IMG/VR virus record: IMGVR_UViG_3300032116_009846
Span: 1-41,079 of that record
Strand: one strand, 5' to 3'
Length of the DNA stretch: 41,079 nt
DNA from: a virus
Of the stretch, positions 2,881 through 38,132 are shown in pieces. The position numbers and the translations under genes were made by a program. Every line of letters begins with the position of its first letter. Position 1 is the first letter of the stretch. The notes beneath the pieces were generated by a model. That model saw only the letters and a program-made list of their open reading frames with translations. It did no database searches and was not told the origin of the DNA.

Positions 2881-3028
2881 ATAAATATTTTTTTATAAGT
2901 TCCATGATTGCAATAGTGTATTTGTCATAGTCTATTTCAATAATAAGGTTGCCATCTATTAATTTATGTACCTTTATCTCTTTACCAATCTCAAATAATA
3001 TATTTTTGATTTCAGTTTCTAAATTCAT
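2870..3028 (-). CDS. hypothetical protein (52 aa)
   Basis: Starts MNLETEIKNILFEIGKEIKV and ends MELIKKYLSND. Its ATG overlaps the stop of the upstream glycosyltransferase gene (TAATG), so it is translated as the second gene of that operon. Predicted mixed helix/strand; no family recognised. Confidence 0.7.
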   Translation of the reverse strand: MNLETEIKNILFEIGKEIKVHKLIDGNLIIEIDYDKYTIAIMELIKKYLSND

Positions 3029-4089
3029 TATTCGTTTCCAATAGGATAATTTATTTGTTTTTTTACTTTGTTAAGTGATTCATAATCTGTTGCTCCCCAA
3101 TATCCAAAATATTTTCCAGATATTATATTTTTAAAATTTAATTTTGAGTTAAAATTTTTTGTAGTTAAATAGTCTATTCCAACTTGATTTGAGTTATATG
3201 TTCGCCAGTTATGATCTTTGTCTAATGGCTCACCACTTGATTTGCCAGAATCTTTATCTACAAAAATTTTATTTAAAGTAGCAATGGTTGGATATTTTGG
3301 ACTAAAAATTTTATACCCTCTGCTCAAAAGTCTAATAGAATAGTTTGTTTGATCACCGTGCCAGTGGTCTTCTGGATCATGCATAACATCTCTGTTTAAA
3401 TTTGCTTTAGAAAACATAAATGCTGCATGTATACATTTGGATTCTTCATACTCTTTTTTATTCATATATTCACGACCATATACTGTTGGAAAATTTAAAA
3501 GATCTTCAATAAAAAAATTACCCTGCTTTCCATCATAAATAAAATCAATTGTGACCATGCCCCTATCTATTAAATTCTTAGCATTTTTTTCTAGATTTAG
3601 TGGATCTATTTCAAATATGTCTTGATTGTCGTTAGTTGTAGCATAAACTTTGTTAGGTTCGTCTTCATAATAAGTCCAAAAAAATCCAGTAGTTGCAGAC
3701 AAAACTAATTTATTTTCATCAATACCATTATCATTTTTAATTTTATTAAAAATAGTTATTAGTTCTGTGTCCCATTTTTTTGGAAAAAATGTATGAGCAT
3801 CTATTTGAAACATATATTCAAAGTTTTTAAATTGTAGCAGAGAGGCATTCATTCTTGCAAATCCAGTCCCCATGGGTGCTGGGGTCATTAATTCAGCATA
3901 GAATATTTGATCGTTATTAGTTAAAAAATTATTATTTAGCAGCGAGTGCTCTTGTTTTAATATATTATTAAATATTCCAAAGTAAATATTTTCTGGATTA
4001 TCTGCATTTGATAACGCACTACGAACTGTTTGCTCTATAAACCTTTCTTCGCATGCTGCTATAGATATAAAAATTGAGTCCTTAATCAT
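3028..4089 (-). CDS. glycosyltransferase, PF11397 (GlcNAc-transferase-like)
   Basis: A 353-residue cytosolic glycosyltransferase. IFISIAACEERFIEQTV at the N-terminus, the metal/nucleotide-sugar motif QIDAHTFF (Asp97-x-His99, replacing the usual DxD) and the C-terminal DPEDHWHGDQTNYSIRLLSR segment are typical of the PF11397 family. The likely reaction is addition of a sugar to a protein or cell-surface acceptor. Its Shine-Dalgarno AGGAGG (4100-4095) lies inside the acceptor stem of the upstream tRNA-Thr gene, 5 nt before ATG. It forms a two-gene operon with 2870-3028. Confidence 0.82.
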   Translation of the reverse strand: MIKDSIFISIAACEERFIEQTVRSALSNADNPENIYFGIFNNILKQEHSLLNNNFLTNNDQIFYAELMTPAPMGTGFARMNASLLQFKNFEYMFQIDAHTFFPKKWDTELITIFNKIKNDNGIDENKLVLSATTGFFWTYYEDEPNKVYATTNDNQDIFEIDPLNLEKNAKNLIDRGMVTIDFIYDGKQGNFFIEDLLNFPTVYGREYMNKKEYEESKCIHAAFMFSKANLNRDVMHDPEDHWHGDQTNYSIRLLSRGYKIFSPKYPTIATLNKIFVDKDSGKSSGEPLDKDHNWRTYNSNQVGIDYLTTKNFNSKLNFKNIISGKYFGYWGATDYESLNKVKKQINYPIGNE

Positions 4090-4092
4090 TTG

Positions 4093-4164
4093 AGCCTCCT
4101 GTAGGATTTGAACCTACGACAACCCGCTTACAAGGCGGGTACTCTACCCCTGAGTTAAGGAGGC
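4093..4164 (-). tRNA. trnT: tRNA-Thr (anticodon TGT)
   Basis: Full cloverleaf: acceptor GCCTCCT/AGGAGGC, D-arm ACTC/GAGT, anticodon arm CCCGC-CTTGTAA-GCGGG, T-arm GTAGG-TTCAAAT-CCTAC. CCA is not encoded. Reads ACA, a codon favoured in A/T-rich genes. Its 3' acceptor strand doubles as the ribosome-binding site of the next gene. Confidence 0.95.
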
Positions 4165-4172
4165 AATCCATA

Positions 4173-6212
4173 TTATTTTACATCAAACCTATCAAGCATC
4201 ATAACTTTATTCCATGCCAAAGCAAAATCATTGATAAATTTTTCTTTAGCATCATCAGAGGCATACACTTCTGAAATTGCTCTAAGTTCTGAGTTAGAGG
4301 CAAGAATAAGGTCTACACGAGGAACACCTACTGCCTGATCTGCATTGGTATATGAAAGAAGGTTGGCTAGATATGTATTGTCTAGGCTATTATTTTCCAA
4401 ACTTCTCATTCCAGAAAGAAGAAGGACCATCTCAACTGGTGTTAGTCCAAGCAGGTTGGACTTTTCTACAAGCAAGACTTCTTCTTGAACGACTATTGAT
4501 GAATCAACATAGTTGCGGAATGCATCAAACATTGGCTCTAAAACTGCAAACGACTCTATGTCTGTTTGCTCTTGAGTAGCATCAGTTCTTCCAATAGTAA
4601 ATGGAACCTTAACACTTTCTCCAGAAGCCTTTTCAATCGCAGAACATCCAGCCAATACAATCAAGTCGGCAATCGATAGTTTATATTCTCTCTGTAGAGA
4701 CTCTAGGTATGACAATACATCTGAAATAATTTTATGATTGTTAATCTTCCAATTATTTTGTGGCTGCAGCCTAATGCGAGCACCATTTGCACCACCACGC
4801 TTGTCTGTCTTGCGAAATGTGGATGCAGAAGCCCATGCAGTATAAACAAAATGATATGCAGGAATATCAGAAGACTTAATTCTATTCTTCACATCATTAA
4901 CATCTAAATCTACATGTTCATATTGTGGAACTGGATCTTGCCATATAAGTTGTTGAGAAGGAACTTCCTTACCAAGATATCTAGATATAGGACCCATATC
5001 TCTGTGTGTCAACTTAAACCAGGCACGAGCAAATGCATTTGAGAAATAATCAAAATCTTCAAGGAATTTGCGTGAAATCTTTTCATACTCTGGATCAAAC
5101 TTGAGAGCCAAATCTGCTGTTGTCATTACTGGAGCATGGAACTTACCTTCGATATGTGCATCTGGAACTAAATTAGCAGCAGACTCGTCTGTAGGAATCC
5201 ATTGTGTTGCACCAGCAGGTGACTTTACCTGCTTCCAATCATACTTAAACAAAATCTTTAAGTAAGAGTTGTCCCACTTGGTTGGCGTAGGAGTCCATGC
5301 ACCTTCAATACCACTTGTGATGGTATCTTCTGCATTACCCTTGCCAAATGAATTCTTCCAGCCAAGTCCCATATCTTCAATAGGGGCAGCCTCTGGATTA
5401 GGACCAACATGCGAAGGATCTCCTGCGCCATGTGCTTTACCAAAAGCGTGACCGCCTGCAATAAGGGCAACGGTTTCTTCATCATTCATGGCCATTCTTG
5501 CAAATGTCTCACGAATATCTTTTGCTGAAAGAAGTGGATCTGGATTGCCATTTGGACCTTCAGGATTTACATAAATCAATCCCATTTGTACAGCAGCAAG
5601 AGGATTCTCTAACTCACGATCACCGCTATAACGGTTGTCTGCAAGCCATTCTTTTTCGCTGCCCCAGTATGTGTCATCTGCTTCCCAAACATCTTCACGA
5701 CCTCCACCAAAACCGAAAGTCTTGAAGCCCATATTTTCAAGAGCAACATTACCAGCAAGAATCATTAGGTCAGCCCATGAAATCTTTCTACCATACTTTT
5801 GTTTAATTGGCCAAAGAAGTCTACGAGCCTTGTCAAGGTTTCCATTGTCAGGCCATGAGTTCTGTGGAGCAAAACGATGTAGTCCTTCTCCAGCCCCACC
5901 ACGACCATCAGTTGTTCTGTATGTCCCTGCGCTGTGCCATGCCATACGGATAAAGAATGGACCATAGTTGCCATAATCAGCAGGCCACCAATCTTGCGAG
6001 GTAGTTAGAAGTGTATCAATATCCTTCTTTACTGCATCAAGATCTAAATTGTTAAACTCTTCAGCATAGTTAAAACCATCTGGCATTGGGTCAGACTTTT
6101 CTGAATGCTTTCTTAACGGGGACAAGTCTAGTTGATTTGGCCACCAGTCCTTGTTTGTTGTTGCTTCGGTTGTATATGTTTTACCAGTGTATGGACACTT
6201 TACTTCACTCAT
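4173..6212 (-). CDS. katG: catalase-peroxidase KatG, shortened C-terminal domain
   Basis: Bifunctional haem catalase-peroxidase that removes H2O2. All catalytic residues of the N-terminal haem domain are present: distal Arg89, Trp92 and His93 in [13 protein letters not shown]; the Met-Tyr-Trp adduct residues Trp92, Tyr214 ([10 protein letters not shown]) and Met240 (ARMAMNDEE); proximal His255 ([10 protein letters not shown]); and Arg411 (GPISRYLG). At 679 residues it is about 50 shorter than usual KatG. The missing part is mainly in the C-terminal domain, between the MRSLENN and [16 protein letters not shown] segments. Starts 5' to AGAGAAAGAGAAC. It follows a structured leader and its own promoter, so it is expressed separately from the carbamoyltransferase upstream. 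KatG is unusual in a phage. Confidence 0.95.
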
Positions 6213-6299
6213 GAGTTCTCTTTCTCTTAAAAATAGGGGGTGTAGTGTTGCAACATAGGCTATATATGTTTCCCGACAAATATAGGCTAACTACACCTT
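6213..6299 (-). promoter_or_regulatory. structured 5' leader of katG
   Basis: About 87 nt separate the predicted transcription start from katG. GGTGTAGT at the very 5' end (plus 6290-6297) pairs perfectly with ACTACACC (plus 6239-6246), closing a ~60-nt domain that also holds TAGCCTAT twice (plus 6282-6289 and 6255-6262) and the palindrome GTTGCAAC (6247-6254). A CCCCTATTTTT run follows the closing stem, so termination or attenuation is conceivable. The direct repeats could instead be a regulator's site. Confidence 0.6.
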
Positions 6300-6305
6300 A
6301 GTATA

Positions 6306-6334
6306 ATTATAGCATCTCACCTGCAGATTGTAAA
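6306..6334 (-). promoter_or_regulatory. katG promoter
   Basis: TTTACA, 17-nt spacer ending TGC, then TATAAT (plus 6306-6311). The -35 box lies inside the 3' end of the carbamoyltransferase gene. Confidence 0.8.
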
Positions 6335-7738
6335 GTTATATTGTTTTTCCCACTTTAAAATGTCATTCTCATCATTTAGGAGTGGCTGGCCCTTTATATT
6401 TAGGCTAGTATTTAATAGGATTGGCACACCAGTTTCAAGATAAAATTTATTTAAAACCCTGTATAAACCACGATGCTGTTCCCTATTGACTGTTTGAACT
6501 CTAGATGTGCCGTCAGCGTGAACAACAGAGGGTATTTTGTCTGGCTGAAGACATTTAACTGTATACTGCATATAAGGGCTTTTAAAGTCCATATCAAACC
6601 ACTTAGACGCACACTCTTCCAAAACTACTGGAGCAAATGGTCTAAACAATTCTCTTTGCTTAATTAAATTAACTTTGTCTTTAATGTTTGGATCTCTTGG
6701 GTCAGCAAGAATAGATCTATTGCCAAGTGCTCTTGGACCATATTCTGCTCTACCTGTTGCTACTGCTACGATTCCATCTTTTAATATGCCGTCGATAATT
6801 TTCTGAACAGGATAATCTCCACCAAGATCGTAGCCAAGATATGGTGTTTTCCAGTTTATGTGCTTACCGTACAAAGCAGCGGCGGCACCTAAAGAAGAAC
6901 CAGCATCACCAGGATTAGGCATAATCCAAACATCTTTAAATATATTCCAAAGCAAGGTGTTAGCAGAAGAGTTAAGAGCACAACCACCCATAAACACAAG
7001 GTTTGTTTTACCAGTTATGGAATAAGCCATGTGCATAAACTCGTTTAATCTTTGCTGATATACCATTTGAACTGCTGCTGCTATATCAAATTTATCTTGT
7101 TCTGATTCAACATGCCCCCAGTCATGAATTCCTTTATGAAAATTATACTTTTGTTTATGATATGATGGAAAATATTCATCTACTTTTCTATAATACTTTG
7201 TCCAATCCCCATACGCAGCCATGCCCATCATAATATATTCTTCTTGGTTTGGCATTAAACCTATTAATTGTGTAAATGCAGAATAAAACAATCCAAAACT
7301 TACTGGATAGTTTTGTTTGTATTTTAGTTTAATCTTTTCTCCTTCTCCTACCCATATAGTTGAAGTGTTGTACTCTCCTATAGCATCAAGAACAACTATG
7401 ACTGCATCGTTAAACTTGCTGGTATAGTATCCTGCAGCAGCGTGTGAATAGTGATGGCTGAAATATTTTATAGGAAGATCCATTGGTATATTCGGTTTCC
7501 AGTCTGCACTTCCACCTCTTAAAAATATTCTAGACCTTTTAAGTTGTGGTTTTTCATAGTACGCTATGTGTGTTGGTGTGCCATAATTTAGCATATCTAA
7601 ATAAATATCTCTGTTGTTATACCAGTCATTTTTTTGTTTGCTATATCTTTCAGCATGTCCTGCAAAAAGAATTTCTCCATCTTTAATTAAAGATATAGAT
7701 GCATCATGTGATGTTTCATTGATACCAAGAATAATCAT
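6317..7738 (-). CDS. carbamoyltransferase (NodU/CmcH/TobZ family)
   Basis: A 473-residue O-carbamoyltransferase. Residues 1-290 form the ASKHA/Kae1-like adenylation domain: INETSHDAS at the start, metal ligands in SHHYSHA (His95, His99), LDAIGE, and VFMGGCALN. The C-terminal domain that handles carbamoyl phosphate shows GRAEYGPRALGNRSILADP (330-347) and LLNTSLNIKGQP. It is shorter than the 550-600 residues typical of the family, ending soon after the last motif. It would carbamoylate a hydroxyl on a sugar or nucleobase; related viral enzymes act on 5-hydroxymethylcytosine. Neighbours (glycosyltransferase, SGNH hydrolase, oxygenase) fit either surface or DNA modification. Confidence 0.9.
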   Translation of the reverse strand: MIILGINETSHDASISLIKDGEILFAGHAERYSKQKNDWYNNRDIYLDMLNYGTPTHIAYYEKPQLKRSRIFLRGGSADWKPNIPMDLPIKYFSHHYSHAAAGYYTSKFNDAVIVVLDAIGEYNTSTIWVGEGEKIKLKYKQNYPVSFGLFYSAFTQLIGLMPNQEEYIMMGMAAYGDWTKYYRKVDEYFPSYHKQKYNFHKGIHDWGHVESEQDKFDIAAAVQMVYQQRLNEFMHMAYSITGKTNLVFMGGCALNSSANTLLWNIFKDVWIMPNPGDAGSSLGAAAALYGKHINWKTPYLGYDLGGDYPVQKIIDGILKDGIVAVATGRAEYGPRALGNRSILADPRDPNIKDKVNLIKQRELFRPFAPVVLEECASKWFDMDFKSPYMQYTVKCLQPDKIPSVVHADGTSRVQTVNREQHRGLYRVLNKFYLETGVPILLNTSLNIKGQPLLNDENDILKWEKQYNFTICR

Positions 7739-7816
7739 TAGTATATAAATTGTTTCTTTTTCTTTTTTCTATTTTTAAAAAATAAAAAAATTTTATAAAA
7801 AAACCATCTGATGTTG

Positions 7817-8731
7817 TTAATCATTAAAAATCTCCTTATATCGCTTTAAAAATTTTTCTGCTATCTGCCTGTTTGTCATTACACCCCAATGACCCATTCC
7901 TGTTTTTTTATTAAAGTCTGCAGCAAACATTAGTAACTTATTTTCTATTGATTCATCAAGCAGCGATCTTCTTGATTCTAGGTTAGACTCCCATATTTGT
8001 ATAATATCTGATGTTCTTAAAAAATTTTTTAATACTTCTTTATCATTATCTTCTAAATATTCATTAATTTTATCAAACTCATCATAGATGCTCCAAATAA
8101 ATTTAATGTTATTTGATTCACAATATTGTTCTAGCATTTTTATAAACATAAAATTATAAAATAATGTAAACTCTTTTGGAATTACATATGCTGGATCATG
8201 AGGAGCCTTAGAAAATTGTGCTATATCGTAATTAAAATATGCCATTGCTGGCACTGCCCATGCTAGTTCATCGGCACTTGATTTTCCACTAACATTTAAA
8301 GAACCGTGCGGATGAATAAACTCTTTTGGAATTGCAGGATACTCTAATCTATATAATGGAAATAATGCTAAAACTATTTTTGGATTTCCAATTTCTTTAA
8401 AATAATTAAAGGCTTTGTAGACCTGTCCATTTATGCTATCTCCTGCATATGCTATTCTGGAATATTTTTTATTTATTGTTTTACAAAAAATATCTGACCA
8501 GGTAAACTCGTTCGGCAATCCAGACCCATATGTTTGAGAACAGCCTAAAATTAAAACTTCATTATCCTTGTTAAATGAATCAGATCTATATCCATGTTCA
8601 TTTATATAATATGGAACCTTTACTACTGTGTCGTCATCAGAATATATTACTTTATTTAGATCAGAAAATGGTCTATTCATTGCAGATTGAGACAGGCTTC
8701 TGTTAAATAAAAATTTATAAAAACTTCTCAT
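7817..8731 (-). CDS. SGNH/GDSL-type hydrolase-like protein
   Basis: A 304-residue protein. Block I reads VLILGCSQTYGSGL (nucleophile Ser in GCSQT, about residue 85), GDSINGQ gives the block-II glycine region, and GMGHWGVMTN near the end supplies a possible catalytic His. SGNH enzymes of this sort remove or add acetyl groups on glycans. The ATG is 6 nt after TGCTATAAT (plus 8738-8743), with no ribosome-binding site, so a leaderless mRNA beginning right after tRNA-Arg is predicted. A 78-nt very A/T-rich gap with no gene (7739-7816) separates it from the carbamoyltransferase gene. Confidence 0.7.
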   Translation of the reverse strand: MRSFYKFLFNRSLSQSAMNRPFSDLNKVIYSDDDTVVKVPYYINEHGYRSDSFNKDNEVLILGCSQTYGSGLPNEFTWSDIFCKTINKKYSRIAYAGDSINGQVYKAFNYFKEIGNPKIVLALFPLYRLEYPAIPKEFIHPHGSLNVSGKSSADELAWAVPAMAYFNYDIAQFSKAPHDPAYVIPKEFTLFYNFMFIKMLEQYCESNNIKFIWSIYDEFDKINEYLEDNDKEVLKNFLRTSDIIQIWESNLESRRSLLDESIENKLLMFAADFNKKTGMGHWGVMTNRQIAEKFLKRYKEIFND

Positions 8732-8744
8732 TATCTAATTATAG

Positions 8745-8816
8745 CACCCCTGGCAGGAATCGAACCTGCGACAAACGGATTAGAAGTCCGCTACTCTTCC
8801 GCTGAGTTACAGAGGT
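8745..8816 (-). tRNA. trnR: tRNA-Arg (anticodon TCT)
   Basis: Acceptor ACCTCTG/CAGGGGT, anticodon loop CTTCTAA between GCGGA and TCCGT, T-arm GCAGG-TTCGATT-CCTGC; no CCA encoded. Reads AGA, which is common in the phage genes here. The -10 box of the next gene starts 2 nt after its end. Confidence 0.95.
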
Positions 8817-8825
8817 ATTGTTGTG

Positions 8826-9620
8826 CTACTCTCTGTATCCCCATATTCCAACAAATTTCCTATCTATTGGATTGAACCCACCCGTTACTGCGTGAGCAAG
8901 TCTAAAAAGATCTGTAACAACAAGGTCTCCTTTTTGCCATTTATGAACCATTCTTAACTCTTCGTTTGTAATAACTTCATTATTAAACCAACTACAAATA
9001 TCTTTAAATGTTTTTTCCTCTTGCTCTGTAGGGGTTTTTCCATTTATAGAAACAAGTTTGTTAGTGGCACCATCTAACTTATCTAACCTTAGTCTTATAA
9101 CTGGCTTATTTGTTATCCAATGATAACCTATTGGCTTATAGTCATCAAATTTTAAATCATTATCAAATTTACCCATGCCAACAACAGAAACATCTAAGAA
9201 ATTTTTCCATTCATCGCTTAATTTTTCGTACAATTTTGATGAATCAACAAAATAAGTTTTTCCATTTTTATTGTCTGTATTAAAAATTAACATATTCCAA
9301 GTGGCAGCAACAATTGGGTTTTTGTAGTAAACATGTTCTATATGCCAAAAAACTACAATATCGTCACCACCTGTTGTTAAAATATCTGCAATTCTGGCAT
9401 GATCTTCTACATAGTTGTCAACTTCTCCAGAGTTTCTTTCAAAGTTTAACCAACCAATTTTTTCTCCAAAAAACTTATTTATTTCAACATGCTCTTCATG
9501 TGTTAAGTTGGCATTTCTAAAAACAATAACGGAGTCTTTTACAAACTTATCTTTATAAAAATTAAAATTGTCTTTAATTTCTTGTATACTTGTAAATTCT
9601 AATGGAACTATTTCTATCAT
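8826..9620 (-). CDS. TauD/TfdA-type Fe(II)/2-oxoglutarate dioxygenase
   Basis: A 264-residue oxygenase. The iron triad appears as His93-x-Glu95 (FWHIEHVYYKNP) and His243 (FRLAHAVTGG), with Arg254 (NPIDRKF) placed to bind 2-oxoglutarate. Glu replaces the more common Asp of HxD. The product is a hydroxylated small molecule, lipid, sugar or base; the substrate is unknown. GGAGGT lies 5 nt upstream of ATG and TATAAT at plus 9638-9643 gives a very short leader. Its promoter follows tRNA-Glu directly. Confidence 0.85.
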   Translation of the reverse strand: MIEIVPLEFTSIQEIKDNFNFYKDKFVKDSVIVFRNANLTHEEHVEINKFFGEKIGWLNFERNSGEVDNYVEDHARIADILTTGGDDIVVFWHIEHVYYKNPIVAATWNMLIFNTDNKNGKTYFVDSSKLYEKLSDEWKNFLDVSVVGMGKFDNDLKFDDYKPIGYHWITNKPVIRLRLDKLDGATNKLVSINGKTPTEQEEKTFKDICSWFNNEVITNEELRMVHKWQKGDLVVTDLFRLAHAVTGGFNPIDRKFVGIWGYRE

Positions 9621-27322: not shown

Positions 27323-27433
27323 ATGACCGAAGATATCAAGACAGTAGATCCAATTGAGGCTGGAGACAAGTGCTGTACTTCATGCACCTGCACAGACCCT
27401 CATAGATCAAAACCAGCCACAGACGCAGAATAG
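27323..27433 (+). CDS. CCxxCxC miniprotein (36 aa)
   Basis: MTEDIKTVDPIEAGDKCCTS then CTCTDPHRSKPATDAE. The CCTSCTC cluster resembles metallothionein or copper-binding motifs. Leaderless: ATG 6 nt after TATAAT (27311-27316). Its stop overlaps the GTG start of the sulfotransferase (TAGTG). Confidence 0.72.
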   Translation: MTEDIKTVDPIEAGDKCCTSCTCTDPHRSKPATDAE

Positions 27434-28101
27434 TGCAAGAAGTTTTTCTATTCAACTCACCACCTAGATCAGGTAACGTGTTTCTCATGTTCCTATATAG
27501 AACTTTTATAGGCGGAGAAGTAAACAAATGTTTAGATATAAAAAAATATTCAGATAAATCCCAAAAGCAGGCGGTATTCTTTAGAAATCCCTATGACTCA
27601 ATTCCATCTGCAATAGTTAAAGCAAGAGTTGATACTGGTTTATCATTTGAGCCAGGGGAACTAGATAACATAGACGCTACTATCGAGTGGTACGCAAAAG
27701 AATACCTGGAAGCAATAAAAGAGGCTAAGGCAAATCAATCAAACATATATCTTGGCAGATCCGAAGATGCAATGCAAGACCCCATATCAGTCATAACCGA
27801 TATAGCCCAATTCTTTGGTTTGAAAATCCAATCTAAACAACTATCAAACGATCAAGTAATCGAGCAAATTAGAAAAACCATGCTTGATACAGAAAAAACC
27901 AGGGATAATAACGGAACCGTAATAGTAGAACACCTTATGACCGATCACGATGGCCATTTACCTAGAGAAAAGATTCCTGGCAGGATACTTATGGACGAAA
28001 TCGTAAAAAACTCAAAATCCGAAACCCTAAAAGAATGCTATAATGAATATGCTTCAATTAATCCTACAAATGCAAAGGAAGGTCAGAGATGGGTTTCTTA
28101 G
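27433..28101 (+). CDS. sulfotransferase-family protein (second)
   Basis: A 222-residue protein with PPRSGNVFL (residues 10-18, PAPS 5' loop) and FFRNPYDSIPSAI (Arg51, Ser59, 3'-phosphate site), spacing typical of sulfotransferases. Distinct from the one at 2143. GTG start, coupled to the preceding Cys miniprotein and to the following one, suggesting a functional group. Confidence 0.82.
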   Translation: MQEVFLFNSPPRSGNVFLMFLYRTFIGGEVNKCLDIKKYSDKSQKQAVFFRNPYDSIPSAIVKARVDTGLSFEPGELDNIDATIEWYAKEYLEAIKEAKANQSNIYLGRSEDAMQDPISVITDIAQFFGLKIQSKQLSNDQVIEQIRKTMLDTEKTRDNNGTVIVEHLMTDHDGHLPREKIPGRILMDEIVKNSKSETLKECYNEYASINPTNAKEGQRWVS

Positions 28102-30196: not shown

Positions 30197-30592
30197 ATGC
30201 CTATTCACAATACCCTTGCTTTTGGTGCAGATCCTGTCACTATGCAATGGAGTGTTGTTAGAGGAGATACAGGAACCCTTCGTGTGGAATTCTATGAGTC
30301 TAACGAAGTAGATTTTTATGATACAACTGGATGGATTTTTAGAGCAACCGCCTATGACCAATCTGGAAATGTCTTAGATGCCTTAGATTGCGAACCTGGT
30401 GAAGGATTTGTCGACATTACTGCATATCCTTCTGTTACAAAAAATTGGGGATCTAAATATTCTTCAGTCGTGGCTCAATTACCATTTGACCTACAGGTAA
30501 TTATTCCAGAAGAAATCGAAGACATTGTTTGGACTCCAGTTATAGGCACAATACAAGTTTTAGGTGACGTTACACCAGGGGGTACACTATAA
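30197..30592 (+). CDS. baseplate/fibre N-terminal-domain protein (131 aa), paralogue of 39403
   Basis: MPIHNTLAFGAD, then MQWSVVRGDTGTLRVEF and a beta-rich body ending GTIQVLGDVTPGG. The VxRGDxxxxRVxF ... TVxKGxxxxLxDVT frame is shared with the gene at 39403 and resembles the N-terminal anchoring domain of baseplate upper proteins. Leaderless ATG. Next gene starts on its stop (TAATG). Confidence 0.78.
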   Translation: MPIHNTLAFGADPVTMQWSVVRGDTGTLRVEFYESNEVDFYDTTGWIFRATAYDQSGNVLDALDCEPGEGFVDITAYPSVTKNWGSKYSSVVAQLPFDLQVIIPEEIEDIVWTPVIGTIQVLGDVTPGGTL

Positions 30593-31401
30593 TGGCAGTT
30601 ATTAAGATTGTTCCTATGCCAGGCGCAGAAGGACAAAAGGGAGATACAGGTGCAGCAGGTCCGCAGGGTCCACAAGGAGCAACTGGTGCACAGGGACCAG
30701 CAGGTGCAGATGCAGTATGGTACTACAATGGTGCATACAATCCAGGAGCATCATATGCAGTTGGTGATGTTGTAACATACGAAGGACAAACCTGGTATCG
30801 CAAACACGCCAATGGCGGTAATGTTGGAGATACTCCATCCGAAGGTCCATTCTGGGATTTAGTTGCTAGTAAAGGAACTGATGCATCTTCATTTATAAGT
30901 TATGGAACTTGGGACACCGAATTTTTATCATTGTCTGATCTAGAAGGAACTTTTACAAGCCCAGACAGAAGTTTTGGTCAATATACTAAAATTGGAGACT
31001 TGGTGTTTTTTGAAGTAAACATAGTTGGACCATTTGTAACTAATTGGGGATCAAGCACAGGTTGGCACATTAAATTACCTTTTCCAATAGCGCCCGTATG
31101 GCAAACTGGTGTTAATCCAAACATTGCAAGAGATATGGCTGTTGGAAGATTTTTTGGAAATAGTGATACTTCTTTGGGATTGACTACAAACGGATATGGT
31201 TGGATACCTTTGTTTGGTGTTATATATACTGATGCCATACATGGTGCAACATGTTCTTTACATGCACAAGATGTTCAAGATATACACACCCTTTATGATT
31301 CTTTGAAACAGGTAACATCTACTTGGCCTTGGGATTTCACTCAATCTGGAAATGATTACGTTAGATTTCATATAAGTGGAACATATAGGACAGTATCATA
31401 A
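30592..31401 (+). CDS. collagen-like tail fibre with chitin-binding-type domain (269 aa)
   Basis: Residues 10-42: collagen-like Gly-x-x repeat (AGPQGPQGATGAQGPAG). Residues 43-90: WYYNGAYNPGASYAVGDVV and GQTWYRKHANGG ... FWDLVA match the ChtBD3/CBM5-12 carbohydrate-binding fold (aromatics exposed). Residues 100-269: a beta receptor-binding domain with YTKIGDLVFFEVN and LPFPIAP, also found in the gene at 31682. A host-glycan-binding fibre. Part of a run of TAATG-coupled genes. Confidence 0.85.
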   Translation: MAVIKIVPMPGAEGQKGDTGAAGPQGPQGATGAQGPAGADAVWYYNGAYNPGASYAVGDVVTYEGQTWYRKHANGGNVGDTPSEGPFWDLVASKGTDASSFISYGTWDTEFLSLSDLEGTFTSPDRSFGQYTKIGDLVFFEVNIVGPFVTNWGSSTGWHIKLPFPIAPVWQTGVNPNIARDMAVGRFFGNSDTSLGLTTNGYGWIPLFGVIYTDAIHGATCSLHAQDVQDIHTLYDSLKQVTSTWPWDFTQSGNDYVRFHISGTYRTVS

Positions 31402-31682
31402 TGGCACAACATTCTATCGTATCGCTAACAAGTTCAACACCAGTAAGACTTACTCCAAACGGTAAGCATGGCGGCATGGATATAACTTTACAAAACGTAA
31501 ATGATTCTGGATATATCTATGTTGGCGCTAACGAAAGCCTGTCATCAACAAATTATGGTTTTAGAATTATGCCAAACCACTCAATCTCTTTTGAACTTCC
31601 AAGTTTTGATGCGTTGTATGCCATAGGCTCAACATCAATGAATCTAGCAATAATCCAGACTGGTCTAGAGAGTCAGAACTAA
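31401..31682 (+). CDS. small virion-type beta protein (93 aa)
   Basis: MAQHSIVSLTSSTPVRLTPN, then ITLQNVNDSGYIYVGANESL. The pattern of a short beta-sandwich decoration protein found between fibre genes. Start and stop both overlap neighbours (TAATG). Confidence 0.75.
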   Translation: MAQHSIVSLTSSTPVRLTPNGKHGGMDITLQNVNDSGYIYVGANESLSSTNYGFRIMPNHSISFELPSFDALYAIGSTSMNLAIIQTGLESQN

Positions 31683-32125
31683 TGGCAAGATTTACGCATC
31701 CCGCATTTGGTGATGTAGGTGGGCTTACTACAAAAATTAATTCTTATAATCCAGTTTGGTCTGGTACAGGATTAACATTTACAAACTCTCCAGCAACTGG
31801 TTCTTATGTAAAAATTGGTAATTTAATAATTGTTCAAATAGATGTTTTGTATACTAATGTTACAAACTTTGGCACAGGTCAATACTCCTTGACACTACCA
31901 TTTGCATCTAAGTATCATACGGATGTTTATGGTGGATCTGCTCATGATACCCTGCCAAATTTAAAACACTATAGTTTAAAAGGACATTTAACTCCATCAA
32001 GTTCTGTTATGACATTGTGGCAGCATGCTGGATCTTCAGAGGATGTTCCAATGACAAAAACTGTTCCGTTTAACGCTACAACAGAAGACAAATTCCACAT
32101 GTCATTTTCCTATATTTCTGAATAA
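31682..32125 (+). CDS. fibre tip / receptor-binding domain protein (147 aa)
   Basis: YVKIGNLIIVQIDVLYTNVT then TGQYSLTLPFASKY: same blocks as the C-terminal part of the 30592 fibre (YTKIGDLVFF ... LPFP). It lacks the collagen stalk, so it may be a free tip or a split fibre. Confidence 0.78.
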   Translation: MARFTHPAFGDVGGLTTKINSYNPVWSGTGLTFTNSPATGSYVKIGNLIIVQIDVLYTNVTNFGTGQYSLTLPFASKYHTDVYGGSAHDTLPNLKHYSLKGHLTPSSSVMTLWQHAGSSEDVPMTKTVPFNATTEDKFHMSFSYISE

Positions 32126-32142
32126 TGTGAGATAATGAGTCC

Positions 32143-32862
32143 ATGCCAGTATCTAAATCCATGGACTTCCCTAGCGCAAAAAAATCATCTTATGCTGCAC
32201 AAGTTGTAGAAACTCAAACAACTAATGCTGATGTATTAATTAATTACGTTCCAGTTCCTGGACCAATGGGACCACAAGGACCTATCGGGCCCGCAGGACC
32301 GCAAGGACCTTCTGGCAAAGATGGATCTCCAGGACCAAAAGGAGAAAGAGGAACTCCTGGGAAAGATGGACTAAGTTCTTTATCCTCCTCTGGGCAGCAA
32401 GCAGGGTGGGCATCTTACTTTAATCTAAATAGAAAGCCAGTAAGTCTCGGTGTTAACTATGGAGATGATGGATGGGTAAAGGTTTGGGTAGATTCCAAGG
32501 GTAGCAATACAAACGAAAAATACCTACCAGAAGGATGTACCAGTCTTTGGAATGCAGAACAGAGAATGCTTAACTTCCATGGCCTTAAGGTTGGATCTCA
32601 GGTATTTGTGACATACAACTTTGAACTTACTACCAACTCTAATAATACTGAGGTTTGGATGAGGACATTTTTTCCTAAATCTACCACCGAAATTTCGCAG
32701 TTCGTGGCATCCCTAAAATATCAGTATGTCTATAATATGTATGTGACGCAGCATTTCTTTATAGAGGATAACGCTATGTGGAATTCTGGTGCGGTACCTC
32801 AAATTAGAACCGACTACGACTCATCCGTAATTATGAATTCTATCTACGTCAGCGTGGTATAA
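32143..32862 (+). CDS. collagen-like tail fibre (239 aa)
   Basis: Residues 35-77 are a Gly-Pro-x collagen tract ([19 protein letters not shown], then [18 protein letters not shown]), followed by a ~155-residue beta domain with [10 protein letters not shown] and [12 protein letters not shown]. Trimeric fibre stalk plus head. Leaderless: ATG 6 nt after GATAAT. Confidence 0.85.
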
Positions 32863-32869
32863 TAATTGC

Positions 32870-34015
32870 ATGGCATTTCCAGCGACCTACAACTTTGACT
32901 ACTATAAGGGTGATACCTTTGAGTTTCGTATCTATCCTAAGAAGAATGACGGCACGGTTTTTATGCTTAGAGATTTTCAAAATCAATTAAATTCTTTTGT
33001 TCTTCCAACTGATGTTGCGAATGCCCCAGATTATGTTAATGATAATTCTGCCCCATATGATAGTGCCCAGTTTACAATTGCCAAGGTTAGAGGGCCAATA
33101 ACTTCTACGGCACCTGAAGATCAGCCAATTAGATGTTTTGCAAGAGTTTCAGATGATGGGACATATGTTCTGTGTGCAATAAGGCCATCTGATGCAGATA
33201 AACTACAGGCTGGAATAGAATATATTTATGATGTTGAGGTTAGAAGGCCGTCTTCGCTCCCAGGGTCTGGAAGTTATGAATTAGTGTACACTTTAGTTAC
33301 AGGAGCAATAACAGTAACAGATCAAGTAACTGGTGCAAATGCTGCAACTAGAACAACATTATCTGACTATACTATTTCTGGTTTAACAATACCAGCAACA
33401 TGCGCTAATCCAGATATGGATATTATTTCTGAAACATCAGAGTACACTGCACAAGTAATATCATGGTATGAAAATGGATCTCTAATATCAGATCCATCTA
33501 CTTTTGAATTTGCTCCAGATACAACATATATGGCGAAAATAAGAGTAACTCCAAAGTCACCATATCAACTTAAGGGAACTCCAAGAGATAAATTTATAGT
33601 TCAAGGTGCAGAAGCAGTAACAAATCCAGCATATACCACTGAAACACAGTTTGCAGACATAGAGGTTAAATTCCCCAAAACACAAAAGGTTGTATCTTTG
33701 CTATCAATAAGCGGAGTCACAGTTCCAGTAAAAGGTCAAGTCCCAAATACCTCTGTTGCAGCAACAGAACAATATACCGTATCTTTGTCGTGGAAAGAAA
33801 AATCATTAACAGATCCAGTTGTTTATGAAAACTTTACTGGAAACTTTAAAGCAGAAAGAACATACGCAGCAGTTATATCATTAACTCCTAAAACTGGATA
33901 TACGCTTTGTACAGGAATTGCAGAAGACTCTTTCTCTGTTGTCGGTGCTTTAAACTATACTAATAGTGAAAACTCAGGAATCATTATTGCAGAATTTCCT
34001 GTAACAGAGGCTTAA
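32870..34015 (+). CDS. baseplate/fibre protein with Ig-like repeats (381 aa)
   Basis: N-terminal MAFPATYNFDYYKGDTFEFR resembles the baseplate-anchoring fold. The C-terminal half holds two repeats of ~90 residues: (ISGLTIPATCANPD, SETSEYTAQVISWYEN) and (ISGVTVPVKGQVPN, AATEQYTVSLSWKE), each ending in a K-x-G/YxL-x-x-x-x-F-x-V-x-G-A strand pair. Leaderless: ATG 6 nt after TATAAT (32858-32863). Confidence 0.78.
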   Translation: MAFPATYNFDYYKGDTFEFRIYPKKNDGTVFMLRDFQNQLNSFVLPTDVANAPDYVNDNSAPYDSAQFTIAKVRGPITSTAPEDQPIRCFARVSDDGTYVLCAIRPSDADKLQAGIEYIYDVEVRRPSSLPGSGSYELVYTLVTGAITVTDQVTGANAATRTTLSDYTISGLTIPATCANPDMDIISETSEYTAQVISWYENGSLISDPSTFEFAPDTTYMAKIRVTPKSPYQLKGTPRDKFIVQGAEAVTNPAYTTETQFADIEVKFPKTQKVVSLLSISGVTVPVKGQVPNTSVAATEQYTVSLSWKEKSLTDPVVYENFTGNFKAERTYAAVISLTPKTGYTLCTGIAEDSFSVVGALNYTNSENSGIIIAEFPVTEA

Positions 34016-34016
34016 A

Positions 34017-34631
34017 GTGGCAGACATCTTATTATCTACTGATGATTTAACAATTTTTGGTGGTCCAGAAACAATCAGCCTTGACCTAGATATTGGTCCA
34101 CAAGGAGATCGTGGAAGTATTATTATTGAAGTCAATGGAGACCCAAGAAGTACTGCTGTTGCTAATCAGATTGTACAAGAAACACAGGCTTTAGATCTTG
34201 CAATAGATACCCAAGAATTATCAGACACATATAAAACCATTTTTCAAAAAGTTTCTACTGGTGGATCTTTGCAATGGCAGCCAATGCTTAGTTTAAAAAC
34301 AAACTACTATTCTTCGGTTAAAGATGTGACCGCTGTTCCAAATACGGAAACGGGTGTTGGAACATTAACGATTCCGCCAATAAATGTAACAGAAATATAC
34401 GGAACATCTGGCTTAAATGTTGTAACTGAAAATATTTTTAAGATTCAGTATTCAGTATCTTCTCCAGAGTCATCTGGACCATTGGCTACAAACCTTATAG
34501 TAAAAGAACTAAGTAGAACTCAGGGATTCTTAGCACTACCACTTGAAATAAAGGGTGTAGAATATGTTAATAACGCTTGGCAGCCTATGGCTGGTCCTAA
34601 GCGTGTTCATTTATTCATTACAGTGGTATAA
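34017..34631 (+). CDS. structural protein, phage fibre region (204 aa)
   Basis: MADILLSTDDLTIFGGPETI and LDIGPQGDRGSIIIEVNGDP, the latter a short collagen-like break; then beta strands to VHLFITVV. GTG start with AGAGG 8 nt ahead, 1 nt after the previous stop. Likely a baseplate or fibre-attachment protein. Confidence 0.72.
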   Translation: MADILLSTDDLTIFGGPETISLDLDIGPQGDRGSIIIEVNGDPRSTAVANQIVQETQALDLAIDTQELSDTYKTIFQKVSTGGSLQWQPMLSLKTNYYSSVKDVTAVPNTETGVGTLTIPPINVTEIYGTSGLNVVTENIFKIQYSVSSPESSGPLATNLIVKELSRTQGFLALPLEIKGVEYVNNAWQPMAGPKRVHLFITVV

Positions 34632-34650
34632 TGACGAGAGGTGATTTATA

Positions 34651-36603
34651 GTGGCAGCAGAGAATATTGACAAGACCGCAAACGGTACTGGTCCATTCAA
34701 CACTAAAATCCCAGGTCTTTCAGATCCAGCAGATATTCAAGCAGCACTTAGACTTTATCACTATGGGTCAGAGTCATATGATTCAGCAGCACCTACACCA
34801 CCTCCACTTTTAAATAATTCTATTGCAAAACACCTTCAAAATTTAGTTGATGCAGATAATGCAGAAGTAACAAATAGAAATAATGCAATTTCAGCACATA
34901 ATGCATTAACCACAAATGTCCACGGTATCGAAAACACAGCAAACCTGGCAACACAGTCATTCGTTAATTTATCAATAACAAACGCAATCAGTGGTGCTAC
35001 TGGTGGATACCCTGCGCTTGCAGGAAATGGTATTGATTGGAATTCGGTAGACGAGCAGTTTGACCTTGAGCCAGCAATTCTAAACAATAATTCTGTTATA
35101 TCAAAGTCTTCAGCATTTACGCTAGACCCACAAGATGTTAATAAAACAATTCTTTTATCTACATCATCGTCGATGAATTTAACTATTCCGTCAAATTCTT
35201 CGGTTAATATTCCTATTGGATATAAATATACTTTAATTGAAGTTGGCACTGGGGTTACAACTTTTGTGCCAGAATCTGGTGTTTCGGTTAATAGCAAAAA
35301 CTCTCAACTTTTTATTGATGCAAGATATGGTCATGCCGTTTTGATAAAAATTGCAGAAGACTCATGGGTTGCATATGGAGATATTTATGAAAACGCAGGA
35401 GTTACTCCAGTTACCCCAGCAGTAACGCCTGCAGTTACCCCAGCAGTAACGCCTGCTGTTACACCTGCTGTTACACCTGCTGTGACACCTGCAGTTACAC
35501 CAGTTACACCTGCAGTTACACCAGTTACACCTGCAGTTACACCAGTTACTCCTGCAGTTACACCAGTCACTCCAGCAGTTACACCTGCAGTCACTCCAGC
35601 AGTTACACCTGCAGTCACTCCAGCAGTTACACCTGCAGTCACTCCAGCAGTTACACCTGCAACACAAACAACAGTTTACTACGGATATTGTGATCAAGGA
35701 ACGCTTGCTCCAGTGGGACCATACTCTTATTCTTCAACTGGAACTGTAACAGAGATATGTAATACACTCTATAATGATTTTGATTACACTAATGGATATC
35801 CTCCAGTATACTGGGCATGTGGTGCCACTCAGCAAGAAGGAACTCCAAACTGTTCTCAGGTTACCCCTGCAGTAACGCCTGCTTCTGGAACTAACTACTA
35901 CACATTTACTTATTACGATGGAAAGTGTAATTATGCAGTATACGACTACCTTGATAACTATTTAGGAACATACTCAACAAACCTTTGCCAAAACTCAGGA
36001 ACAGACGCTTCAGGAGCAACACTTCCAAGTTGCACCAATGCAAACTGTACTCCTCCTGCAGTTACACCCGCAGTAACTCCTGCAGTAACGCCTGCTGTGA
36101 CACCAGCAGTTACACCCGCAGTTACCCCTGCAGTAACTCCTGCAGTTACTCCAGCCCAAGTTTGGTATTGCTCAACAACAGACTTGGGTCCAGACGGAAT
36201 GTATCAAGGAACATGGAACTCTGACTTGTCTTCTGAGTTGTGCGGTTCCTACAAGACAGTATGCTCTACTTCTGGATACCCACCATATCCAACAGTTCCT
36301 GCTTGCCCAGTTACCCCTGCCGTGACACCTGCCGTGACACCTGCTGTAACACCAGCAGTTACACCAGCAGTTACCCCTGCTGTGACGCCAGCAGTTACCC
36401 CAGCAGTAACACCAGCAGTTACCCCAGCAGTTACACCAGCAGTTACCCCTGCTGTGACGCCAGCAGTTACCCCAGCAGTTACCCCAGCAGTAACGCCTGC
36501 AGTTACCCCAGCAGTTACACCAGCAGTAACACCTTGTACTGGATGCGTTAGAAATTATTGTTGGGAACCATGCCCATCATGTTGTGCTTCATGCGGATGT
36601 TAG
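34651..36603 (+). CDS. (VTPA)n repeat tail fibre with Cys domains (650 aa)
   Basis: Residues 1-250: fibre-type N-terminal region (FNTKIPGLSDPADIQAALRL, then helices and a beta domain). Residues 251-337, 471-502 and 554-628 are Val-Thr-Pro-Ala/Val repeats, 8 to 18 units long. Between them lie three related Cys-containing modules (YYGYCDQG ... YPPVYWACG; YYTFTYYDGKC ... PSC; WYCSTTDLG ... YPPYPTVPAC). The end (CTGCVRNYCWEPCPSCCASCGC, split after residue 10) has ten Cys in about 22 residues. Extended rigid linkers carrying cross-linked or metal-bound tips are the likely design. GTG start behind GAGAGGTG. Confidence 0.85.
   Translation: MAAENIDKTANGTGPFNTKIPGLSDPADIQAALRLYHYGSESYDSAAPTPPPLLNNSIAKHLQNLVDADNAEVTNRNNAISAHNALTTNVHGIENTANLATQSFVNLSITNAISGATGGYPALAGNGIDWNSVDEQFDLEPAILNNNSVISKSSAFTLDPQDVNKTILLSTSSSMNLTIPSNSSVNIPIGYKYTLIEVGTGVTTFVPESGVSVNSKNSQLFIDARYGHAVLIKIAEDSWVAYGDIYENAGVTPVTPAVTPAVTPAVTPAVTPAVTPAVTPAVTPVTPAVTPVTPAVTPVTPAVTPVTPAVTPAVTPAVTPAVTPAVTPAVTPAVTPATQTTVYYGYCDQGTLAPVGPYSYSSTGTVTEICNTLYNDFDYTNGYPPVYWACGATQQEGTPNCSQVTPAVTPASGTNYYTFTYYDGKCNYAVYDYLDNYLGTYSTNLCQNSGTDASGATLPSCTNANCTPPAVTPAVTPAVTPAVTPAVTPAVTPAVTPAVTPAQVWYCSTTDLGPDGMYQGTWNSDLSSELCGSYKTVCSTSGYPPYPTVPACPVTPAVTPAVTPAVTPAVTPAVTPAVTPAVTPAVTPAVTPAVTPAVTPAVTPAVTPAVTPAVTPAVTPAVTPAVTPCTGCVRNYCWEPCPSCCASCGC
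35401..35661. repeat. 12-bp minisatellite encoding VTPV/VTPA, tract 1
   Basis: 87 codons of Val-Thr-Pro-Ala or Val-Thr-Pro, unit GTTACACCTGCA and variants. Synonymous codons vary between units, so the peptide is under selection. Confidence 0.95.
36061..36156. repeat. VTPA minisatellite, tract 3
   Basis: Exactly eight 12-bp units. A two-unit piece (tract 2) lies at 35860-35883. Confidence 0.95.
36310..36534. repeat. VTPA minisatellite, tract 4
   Basis: Eighteen VTPA units plus VTP, 225 bp, ending at the Cys-rich tip. Confidence 0.95.
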
Positions 36604-36647
36604 TGTATAATAGATATTAAAGATTAACTGCGTAGAAAAGGGTATAA

Positions 36648-36887
36648 ATGTCAGAAGAACTAAGTCCTTGGCAAAGATATAAAAAAAATCTGGGAGAAAC
36701 TAGGCCTTGGGATATTGTTAATCCTGCAACAGAGTGGACTTCTGCCGAGGTAGCAGAAGAAAGATATTCTATATGTAAGGCTTGTCCAGAGTTAATTAAA
36801 TTAACAAGTCAATGTAAAAAATGCGGTTGTTTTATGATAGCAAAAACAAAATTAGAAAAAGCAACATGTCCATTAGGAAAGTGGTAA
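36648..36887 (+). CDS. zinc-ribbon phage protein (79 aa)
   Basis: MSEELSPWQRYKKNLGETRP, then ERYSICKACPELIKLTSQCK and CGCFMIAKTKLEKATCPLG. CxxC...CxxCGC...C forms a zinc ribbon seen in small proteins next to phage fibre and hydroxylase genes (DUF6171-like). AAAGGG lies before ATG; TATAAT at 36605-36610 provides a promoter just after the fibre stop. Confidence 0.78.
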   Translation: MSEELSPWQRYKKNLGETRPWDIVNPATEWTSAEVAEERYSICKACPELIKLTSQCKKCGCFMIAKTKLEKATCPLGKW

Positions 36888-36888
36888 T

Positions 36889-37560
36889 ATGGAAAAGGTA
36901 TTTTGGGAAAATTCAACAGGCGTAATATTTAATAAATATAGATCAATAGTTAGAACTGAGATAGCACCTGGAATAATGTCTTATGAAGATGTAATGCCTA
37001 AAGAAATATTTGATACGTTCGTAAATGATATTGAAGAAGGTATGAGTTCGGCAAAAATAGAATGGGGATCTGCCTATGTAAAGGCTGGGTCTGGAGATGA
37101 AGTAAAAACTAAAGTAGATACTGAATCAAGGGATACTCAAACTATTGTAATTCCATATTCTGCAATAGAAAAAGATGATTATTCAACTTTAGGGGCAGCA
37201 TTTCATACCTCCATATCTAACATTTTTTTGGAAAACATAGACCCAATAGAAAAAGATTATCAAAGACATTTTCATATAGGATGTTCGTGGCACGATTCTT
37301 ACTCAATATTAAAATATGGGGTTGGACAAAAATTTGTAAATCATATAGACGATCATCCAGATTTTCATAGAAGAATATCAACACTTTATTATATTAACGA
37401 CGACTACTCTGGTGGAGAAATAAACTTTCCAAGATTTAATCTTTCTTTTAAACCTAAAGCAAATCAGATGATTGTTTTCCCTTCAACCTATGTTTATAAT
37501 CATTCTGTTTCTCCAGTTACAGAAGGAACAAGATATGCGGTGGTTAGTTGGCTGAGATGA
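36889..37560 (+). CDS. prolyl-4-hydroxylase-like Fe(II)/2OG oxygenase (223 aa)
   Basis: The P4H core reads KYGVGQKFVNHIDDH ... RRISTLYYINDDYSGGEINF ... NQMIVFPSTYVYNHSVSPVT: iron ligands His152, Asp154, His205 and 2-oxoglutarate-binding Arg215 in the EGTRYAVVSWL strand. All catalytic positions are intact. It likely hydroxylates a protein side chain, with Pro the family's best-known target. It starts one base after the zinc-ribbon gene and is coupled by ATGA to a second oxygenase. Upstream is the Pro-rich VTPA fibre and two collagen-like fibres. Confidence 0.88.
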   Translation: MEKVFWENSTGVIFNKYRSIVRTEIAPGIMSYEDVMPKEIFDTFVNDIEEGMSSAKIEWGSAYVKAGSGDEVKTKVDTESRDTQTIVIPYSAIEKDDYSTLGAAFHTSISNIFLENIDPIEKDYQRHFHIGCSWHDSYSILKYGVGQKFVNHIDDHPDFHRRISTLYYINDDYSGGEINFPRFNLSFKPKANQMIVFPSTYVYNHSVSPVTEGTRYAVVSWLR

Positions 37561-38132
37561 GCATAGATATGGGCCTTGTAAGACAGGCAATTATAGAAAA
37601 AAGAATTCATGTTTTTAAAAATCCTTTTCCAGAACTACCTTCCCTAGATACAATAATGTCAATGGTTTCTCAATATGTTGATGAAGATCTAGAAAAATTT
37701 CCACACAGATCATATCTTTTGAATGATTTTGTTGAGGGCGAATCTTCAGATATGAGTCTTAAGTGTAGATTTTGGTCAAGGATGGCATTTCAATTATATG
37801 ATCCAAAAGACCTGTATATGTCAATAATTCCAGAATTGGCTCCAGTAACAGAGTGGGGATTGTCCGAATATTCATCTGATATCTATCAGGGTAATTTTTG
37901 TTTAGTTTCTCTTATGAAAAACAGAGGAGTTGTAGGAAGCAAGCATAGTGACTATGTTGATCAATTCCAATGGGTGGTTAAGGGCGAGATGATTTGGAGA
38001 ACAGGTCCAAACCTAGAAAATGAAACACATGTTGTTGAGGGTGATTTTATATTTGTTCCAAAAAATCTAACTCATGAGGTTGAAACCTTAAAAGCACCAA
38101 GAGTAGCAATAAATCTGATTTTAAGAAACTAA
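37557..38132 (+). CDS. cupin/JmjC-type Fe(II)/2OG oxygenase (191 aa)
   Basis: VGSKHSDYVDQFQWVVKGEM and VEGDFIFVPKNLTHEVETL form a cupin core with His130, Asp132 and His173 as iron ligands, as in protein hydroxylases of the JmjC/cupin_4 group. The ATG at 37557 overlaps the preceding stop (ATGA); an earlier in-frame TTG is less likely. Probably acts with the P4H-like enzyme on the same virion protein. Confidence 0.78.
   Translation: MSIDMGLVRQAIIEKRIHVFKNPFPELPSLDTIMSMVSQYVDEDLEKFPHRSYLLNDFVEGESSDMSLKCRFWSRMAFQLYDPKDLYMSIIPELAPVTEWGLSEYSSDIYQGNFCLVSLMKNRGVVGSKHSDYVDQFQWVVKGEMIWRTGPNLENETHVVEGDFIFVPKNLTHEVETLKAPRVAINLILRN

Follow-up and report, generated by a model that had tools for sequence, protein, structure and literature searches.

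In plants, hydroxyproline-rich glycoproteins such as extensins and arabinogalactan proteins are matured by prolyl 4-hydroxylases (P4H) first and by the addition of sugars second, and the sequence motif determines the modification. Viruses encode enzymes of this kind as well; the P4H of PBCV-1 and the collagen modification of mimivirus are thought to act on virion proteins. In the Skp1 pathway of Dictyostelium and Toxoplasma, the P4H-fold enzyme PhyA is paired with the glycosyltransferase Gnt1 of CAZy family GT60, the family of the Skp1 hydroxyproline N-acetylglucosamine (GlcNAc) transferase and of a protist mucin transferase (PMC6939170, PMC8724618). Among phages, a collagen-repeat protein and a tail fibre flank a glycosyltransferase and a 2-oxoglutarate (2OG) oxygenase in the tail region of cyanophage ACG-2014f, O-glycosylation of mycobacteriophage virions is known (Freeman et al. 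2023, cited in PMC11652166), and a survey of Baltic water found P4H-like genes among the most abundant viral accessory genes, whose viral use 'remains cryptic' (PMC9301287). Here, we describe a repeat fibre gene and the oxygenase genes behind it in the IMG/VR virus record IMGVR_UViG_3300032116_009846, which was analysed over its full length of 41,079 nucleotides (the window). The three genes behind the fibre gene probably constitute a swappable maturation cassette, which would hydroxylate, and in relatives also glycosylate, the phage's own repeat fibre. The fibre gene, the enzyme genes and a closing gene form one block:

34651..36603, plus strand: fibre protein of 650 amino acids, the proposed substrate, with homologues in 100+ loci
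36648..36887, plus strand: Zn-ribbon protein of 79 amino acids (DUF6171; PF19668, 3e-6), head of the enzyme cassette
36889..37560, plus strand: P4H-type Fe(II)/2OG oxygenase of 223 amino acids (PF13640, E=7e-17)
37557..38132 from its ATG (alternative TTG start at 37548), plus strand: small JmjC-type cupin oxygenase (HxD...H), assigned by predicted fold and conserved residues
38178..38795, minus strand: transglycosylase-like gene closing the cassette, matched in tblastn by Streptomyces phage and Prochlorococcus phage proteins; its position is conserved among relatives and it was used as a neutral anchor

The fibre protein consists of a conserved N-terminal part of about 250 amino acids, (VTPA)n arrays that are interrupted by short Cys/Tyr/Gly-rich segments, and a Cys-rich C-terminus; residues 150-245 give weak PHROG matches to minor tail and fibre proteins. 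VTPA occurs 46 times, as compared to 0.18 times expected from shuffled composition. The repeat appears to be maintained at the protein level because synonymous third codon positions vary, which also makes a function of the repeat at the DNA level unlikely. Several repeat fibres of relatives (L038:4672-7371, L050:5379-7973, L061:7475-8740, L127:18754-20280 and L253) terminate in Hint/intein-like domains, which suggests self-processing of the fibre C-terminus; the window fibre possesses the Cys-rich tail instead.

The first-pass annotation of this DNA had placed the P4H gene 285 nt behind the fibre gene. These coordinates are correct; however, the gap is not empty and harbors the previously overlooked Zn-ribbon gene, which is separated from the P4H gene by the junction TAA-T-ATG. 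The six cysteines of the Zn-ribbon protein are kept in 69-70 of 70 sequences, and the protein is tied to modification machinery by a gene for 394 amino acids at locus L278 (10669-11853, minus strand), in which the DUF6171 Zn-ribbon is fused to a GT60 glycosyltransferase. The adjacent oxygenase indeed carries the complete HxD/H/R set that had been read from its sequence. It scores 62.6 bits for PF13640, above the curated cut-off of 27, and its best solved relative in a phmmer search is the Bacillus anthracis P4H (3itq/5hv0; 3e-8), followed by PHD2. Among 72 relatives, H152 is conserved in 70, D154 in 71, H205 in 72 and R215 in 69, the latter being the basic residue ten positions after the distal histidine of the HxD...H metal triad. 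The enzyme is a putative prolyl hydroxylase, with the fibre repeats as its proposed substrate.

The ATG of the cupin gene at position 37557 overlaps the P4H stop codon (ATGA), in agreement with the translational coupling that had been noted before. H133, D135, H176 and R185 of the cupin are invariant in 42 sequences, and an AlphaFold2 model built from 42 relatives reached a predicted local distance difference test score of 89. In Foldseek, this model matched YcfD, MINA53, NO66 and FIH with a probability of 1.00, the first three with E-values of about 1e-6 and template modelling (TM) scores of 0.5-0.58. The window cupin itself falls under the cut-offs for Cupin_2, Cupin_8 and JmjC_2, whereas a distant homologue (L093) exceeds those for JmjC_2 and Cupin_8. 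As the model matches JmjC protein hydroxylases and the four residues are invariant, the cupin looks like a second protein hydroxylase rather than a sugar cupin, although TM scores of 0.5-0.58 leave doubt. The cupin was absent from an annotated phage collection searched by tblastn, no cellular relatives were found in GTDB genomes, and positions 1-25000 of the window had no DNA match in the annotated phage collection.

Relatives were gathered by scanning 2.9 million IMG/VR contigs with the cupin, the P4H and VTPA as queries. The cupin was present on 78 contigs and four consecutive VTPA units on 76, of which 48 were common to both. Where the contig is long enough, almost all P4H loci are preceded by a repeat fibre gene and a Zn-ribbon gene. 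The stretch from P4H to the closing gene encodes, in relatives, GT61 glycosyltransferases, often fused to the cupin, GT60 (PF11397) enzymes, guanosine diphosphate (GDP)-sugar epimerases, proteins with weak similarity to O-fucosyltransferases, radical SAM/SPASM proteins and an additional oxygenase of about 193 amino acids, which models as a PHD/P4H fold. The window cassette itself contains no glycosyltransferase gene. The host of this phage group is probably a freshwater actinobacterium, as indicated indirectly by the group's ribonucleotide reductase, which shares 61% identity with that of Actinomycetia phage DSL-LC01, a lake-metagenome assembly.

When the fibres were classified by repeat and near-copies were merged, 228 units collapsed into 83 clusters, and the enzyme content followed the repeat. 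VTP clusters encode the cupin in 25 of 26 cases and P4H in 23 of 26; (TP)n clusters lack the cupin altogether (0/17) and carry P4H (15/17) and GT60 (9/17). In PVAP clusters, the 193-amino-acid P4H-fold oxygenase is found in 13 of 15 cases and P4H in 10 of 15. Thr-rich clusters all possess GT60 (5/5) and no canonical P4H (0/5); two of them carry a short 2OG-type protein plus FFP segments. Fibres that are Gly-rich or repeat-free are accompanied by essentially none of these enzymes. Overall, canonical P4H is present in 48 of 58 Pro-repeat clusters versus 0 of 14 Thr-rich or Gly-rich ones, two ambiguous units being excluded. The pattern was not created merely by the way the loci were gathered, since each of the three queries could have retrieved mismatched cases. 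When loci were retrieved through the neutral closing gene alone, any oxygenase was found in 28 of 30 Pro-repeat clusters versus 3 of 13 others (p=8e-6) and the cupin in 10 of 10 VTP clusters versus 1 of 41 others (p=9e-10); the Fisher tests assume independent clusters, an assumption that is only partly valid. The first-pass annotation had proposed the co-occurrence of VTPA fibres and P4H as a check, and in this large set of relatives the cupin tracks VTP and P4H tracks Pro-containing repeats. Its refuting case, oxygenases that are equally frequent without repeat fibres, was absent from this locus within the phage group. A second fibre gene of the relatives, located about 6 kb downstream, presents a similar picture, as PF13640 2OG oxygenases accompany 6 of 6 FFP-repeat clusters versus 0 of 15 clusters with Pro-free AFG repeats. 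Behind fibres with [ST]PFG repeats, there are HDH-motif proteins that are 2OG-oxygenase-like by motif; they found no confirmation by Pfam or PDB profiles and were not counted as oxygenases.

If the cassette matures the fibre, the P4H-type enzyme would use Fe(II), O2 and 2-oxoglutarate to hydroxylate proline of the (VTPA)n arrays, and the JmjC-type cupin would perform a second, VTP-specific hydroxylation, for which valine, threonine or that same proline are candidates. The Zn-ribbon protein may serve in docking or as an adaptor. In relatives, the hydroxyl groups thus formed, or threonine, would be glycosylated by the GT60, GT61 or fucosyltransferase-like enzymes of the cassette. In the window phage, the pathway may end with hydroxylation, or the following distant gene of the record may act as a partner:

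3028..4089, minus strand: PF11397 (GT60-type) glycosyltransferase (9e-23), a possible trans-acting partner only

Because the same slot holds glycosyltransferases in relatives, hydroxylation may serve as a glycan handle rather than as a stiffener of the fibre, and either modification could affect host binding or virion stability. The idea that the phage hydroxylates its own fibre is retained in so far as the enzyme set follows the repeat type, but not for a collagen target. A broader interpretation, which we regard as an even call, is that freshwater, probably actinobacterial phages exchange fibre-plus-enzyme cassettes according to a repeat code, in which VTP goes with P4H, a JmjC hydroxylase and in some cases GT61, PVAP with the other P4H-fold enzyme and fucosyltransferase-like enzymes, (TP)n with P4H and GT60 or GDP-sugar enzymes, and Thr-rich repeats with only GT60. 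Bacterial viruses would thereby have their own equivalents of hydroxyproline glycoproteins and mucins, with which to vary the virion surface.

Such cassettes resemble the described systems in part. The pairing of a P4H-fold enzyme with GT60 recalls the Skp1 pathway, and in relatives such as L103 the two genes are adjacent, with GT60 (PF11397, 2e-36) directly after P4H; in the window, the cassette lacks GT60 and the PF11397 gene lies elsewhere in the record. However, the Skp1 pathway targets a single proline in a ubiquitin-ligase subunit, and here the proposed target is a repeat fibre. Plant hydroxyproline-rich glycoproteins share Pro/Thr/Ala/Val-rich repeats with the fibres, but this likeness is only an analogy: the substrate would be a phage protein, and the glycosyltransferases are different ones. 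PBCV-1 and mimivirus likewise encode their own hydroxylases, whereas the P4H described here goes with TP-type repeat fibres rather than with collagen-like proteins. In cyanophage ACG-2014f, no TP-type repeat fibre is located nearby. Actinophage enzymes decorate capsid and tail in mycobacteriophage O-glycosylation, and the parts of that account available to us describe neither prolyl hydroxylation nor repeat-matched oxygenases (PMC11652166). No description of repeat-matched hydroxylase cassettes in phages was found in the literature, which is weak evidence for novelty as most subscription papers were outside the search. In this large natural data set, viral P4H would be linked to a single class of substrate, namely Pro-repeat fibres of the phage itself, and glycosyltransferases pair with the type of repeat as well. 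If this is true, phages produce hydroxyproline-type glycoproteins, a class described chiefly in plants, algae and protists, and exchange them as modules; a mass shift of its own is predicted for every repeat class.

Several observations weigh against a fibre-directed cassette. P4H-fold enzymes also act on unrelated targets, namely EF-Tu, Skp1 and HIF. Three of the 26 VTP clusters lack P4H, and four of seven FTP fibres have no nearby oxygenase although they bear proline. About 20 unrelated higher-GC phages contain VTPA stretches in other virion proteins and no PF13640 gene; the VTPA repeat as a sufficient signal for P4H was rejected on this ground. The suggestion that VTPA is an oxygenase target is supported within the phage group, where the enzymes follow the repeat, but VTPA alone does not require the enzyme. 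The unrelated phages include L161, L174, L194, L197 and L216, whose (VTPA)n stretches are found in proteins of about 1500-1800 amino acids. Fibre and enzyme genes furthermore adjoin each other, so that one recombination event could move both, and this adjacency is a confounder. The neutral-gene tree implies 38 changes of the repeat label, and its supported branches require at least six VTP changes. In six supported independent pairs on this tree, the cupin moves with VTP in 4.8 and against it in 0; on the P4H tree, P4H being located between repeat and cupin, the counts from five pairs are 3.5 with and 0 against. These counts favour functional matching of cupin and VTP; however, the tree-controlled sign tests gave p-values of about 0.06 and 0.125, short of 0.05, and descent and function are incompletely separated for the fibre/enzyme pairing.

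Since these tests are only suggestive, the oxygenases might instead target host or other phage proteins, such as EF-Tu or ribosomal proteins, or serve host take-over more generally, and sit next to the fibre only through linkage and shared descent. In fold, the cupin is closest to ribosomal oxygenases, the structure of a Pseudomonas putida P4H has been solved with EF-Tu, and related phages encode many further PF13640 genes. We nevertheless consider such targets unlikely: the enzyme type tracks the repeat and not the phage background, the cassette changes often on the neutral-gene tree yet stays matched, the second fibre locus shows the same contrast with different repeats, and the cupin occurs as a fusion to a glycosyltransferase. 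The record of L153 (G003, 76,885 bases) encodes nine PF13640 oxygenases in one phage fragment.

The same fusion, with GT61 as the partner, could be taken to mean that mucin-like glycosylation of threonine is primary and that the oxygenases act on the sugar, its linkage or a nucleotide sugar and not on the polypeptide. The presence of GT60 in all five Thr-rich clusters, which have no canonical P4H, and the inclusion of protist mucin-type GlcNAc transferases in GT60 (PMC6939170, PMC8724618) would fit this explanation; it is nonetheless improbable, as the window cassette is devoid of any glycosyltransferase, and P4H and the second P4H-fold oxygenase accompany Pro repeats and not Thr-rich ones. 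Behind the Thr-rich, mucin-like fibres of L260, L291 and L304, radical SAM/SPASM and GT60 genes take the place of P4H.

The first-pass annotation had further connected the P4H to two collagen-like stretches upstream, which are real, though short:

30592..31401, plus strand: collagen-like protein 1, about 10 GXY triplets and a CBM_5_12-like domain (Pfam Collagen, 5e-5)
32143..32862, plus strand: collagen-like protein 2, about 13 GXY triplets with proline mostly in the X position (Pfam Collagen, 5e-7)

That P4H stabilizes the triple helices of these fibres, in the manner known from animals and proposed for other viruses, is very improbable despite their location 4-6 kb upstream and the link between viral P4H and collagen in the literature (PMC9301287), because collagen-like open reading frames lie upstream irrespective of P4H (in 13 of 15 units without and 24 of 24 with the enzyme) and their proline is nearly always in the X and not the Y position, with 0-4 GxP per run. 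Collagen was thus rejected as the main P4H substrate, and the collagen-like fibres are probably bystanders next to the repeat fibre.

Further genes were noted outside the cassette. The PF11397 glycosyltransferase gene is part of a block (3028-9620, minus strand) that also encodes a haem peroxidase, a carbamoyltransferase and a TauD-type 2OG oxygenase, a combination that is unusual in a phage. The window also contains a sulfotransferase-like gene at 27433-28101 on the plus strand (PF00685, 7e-5), and it is a pure guess that its product acts on the Tyr-rich segments of the fibre. In relatives, DUF6065-like genes (L338:8013-8729 and other loci) are located after the second fibre in almost every class, whatever the repeat.

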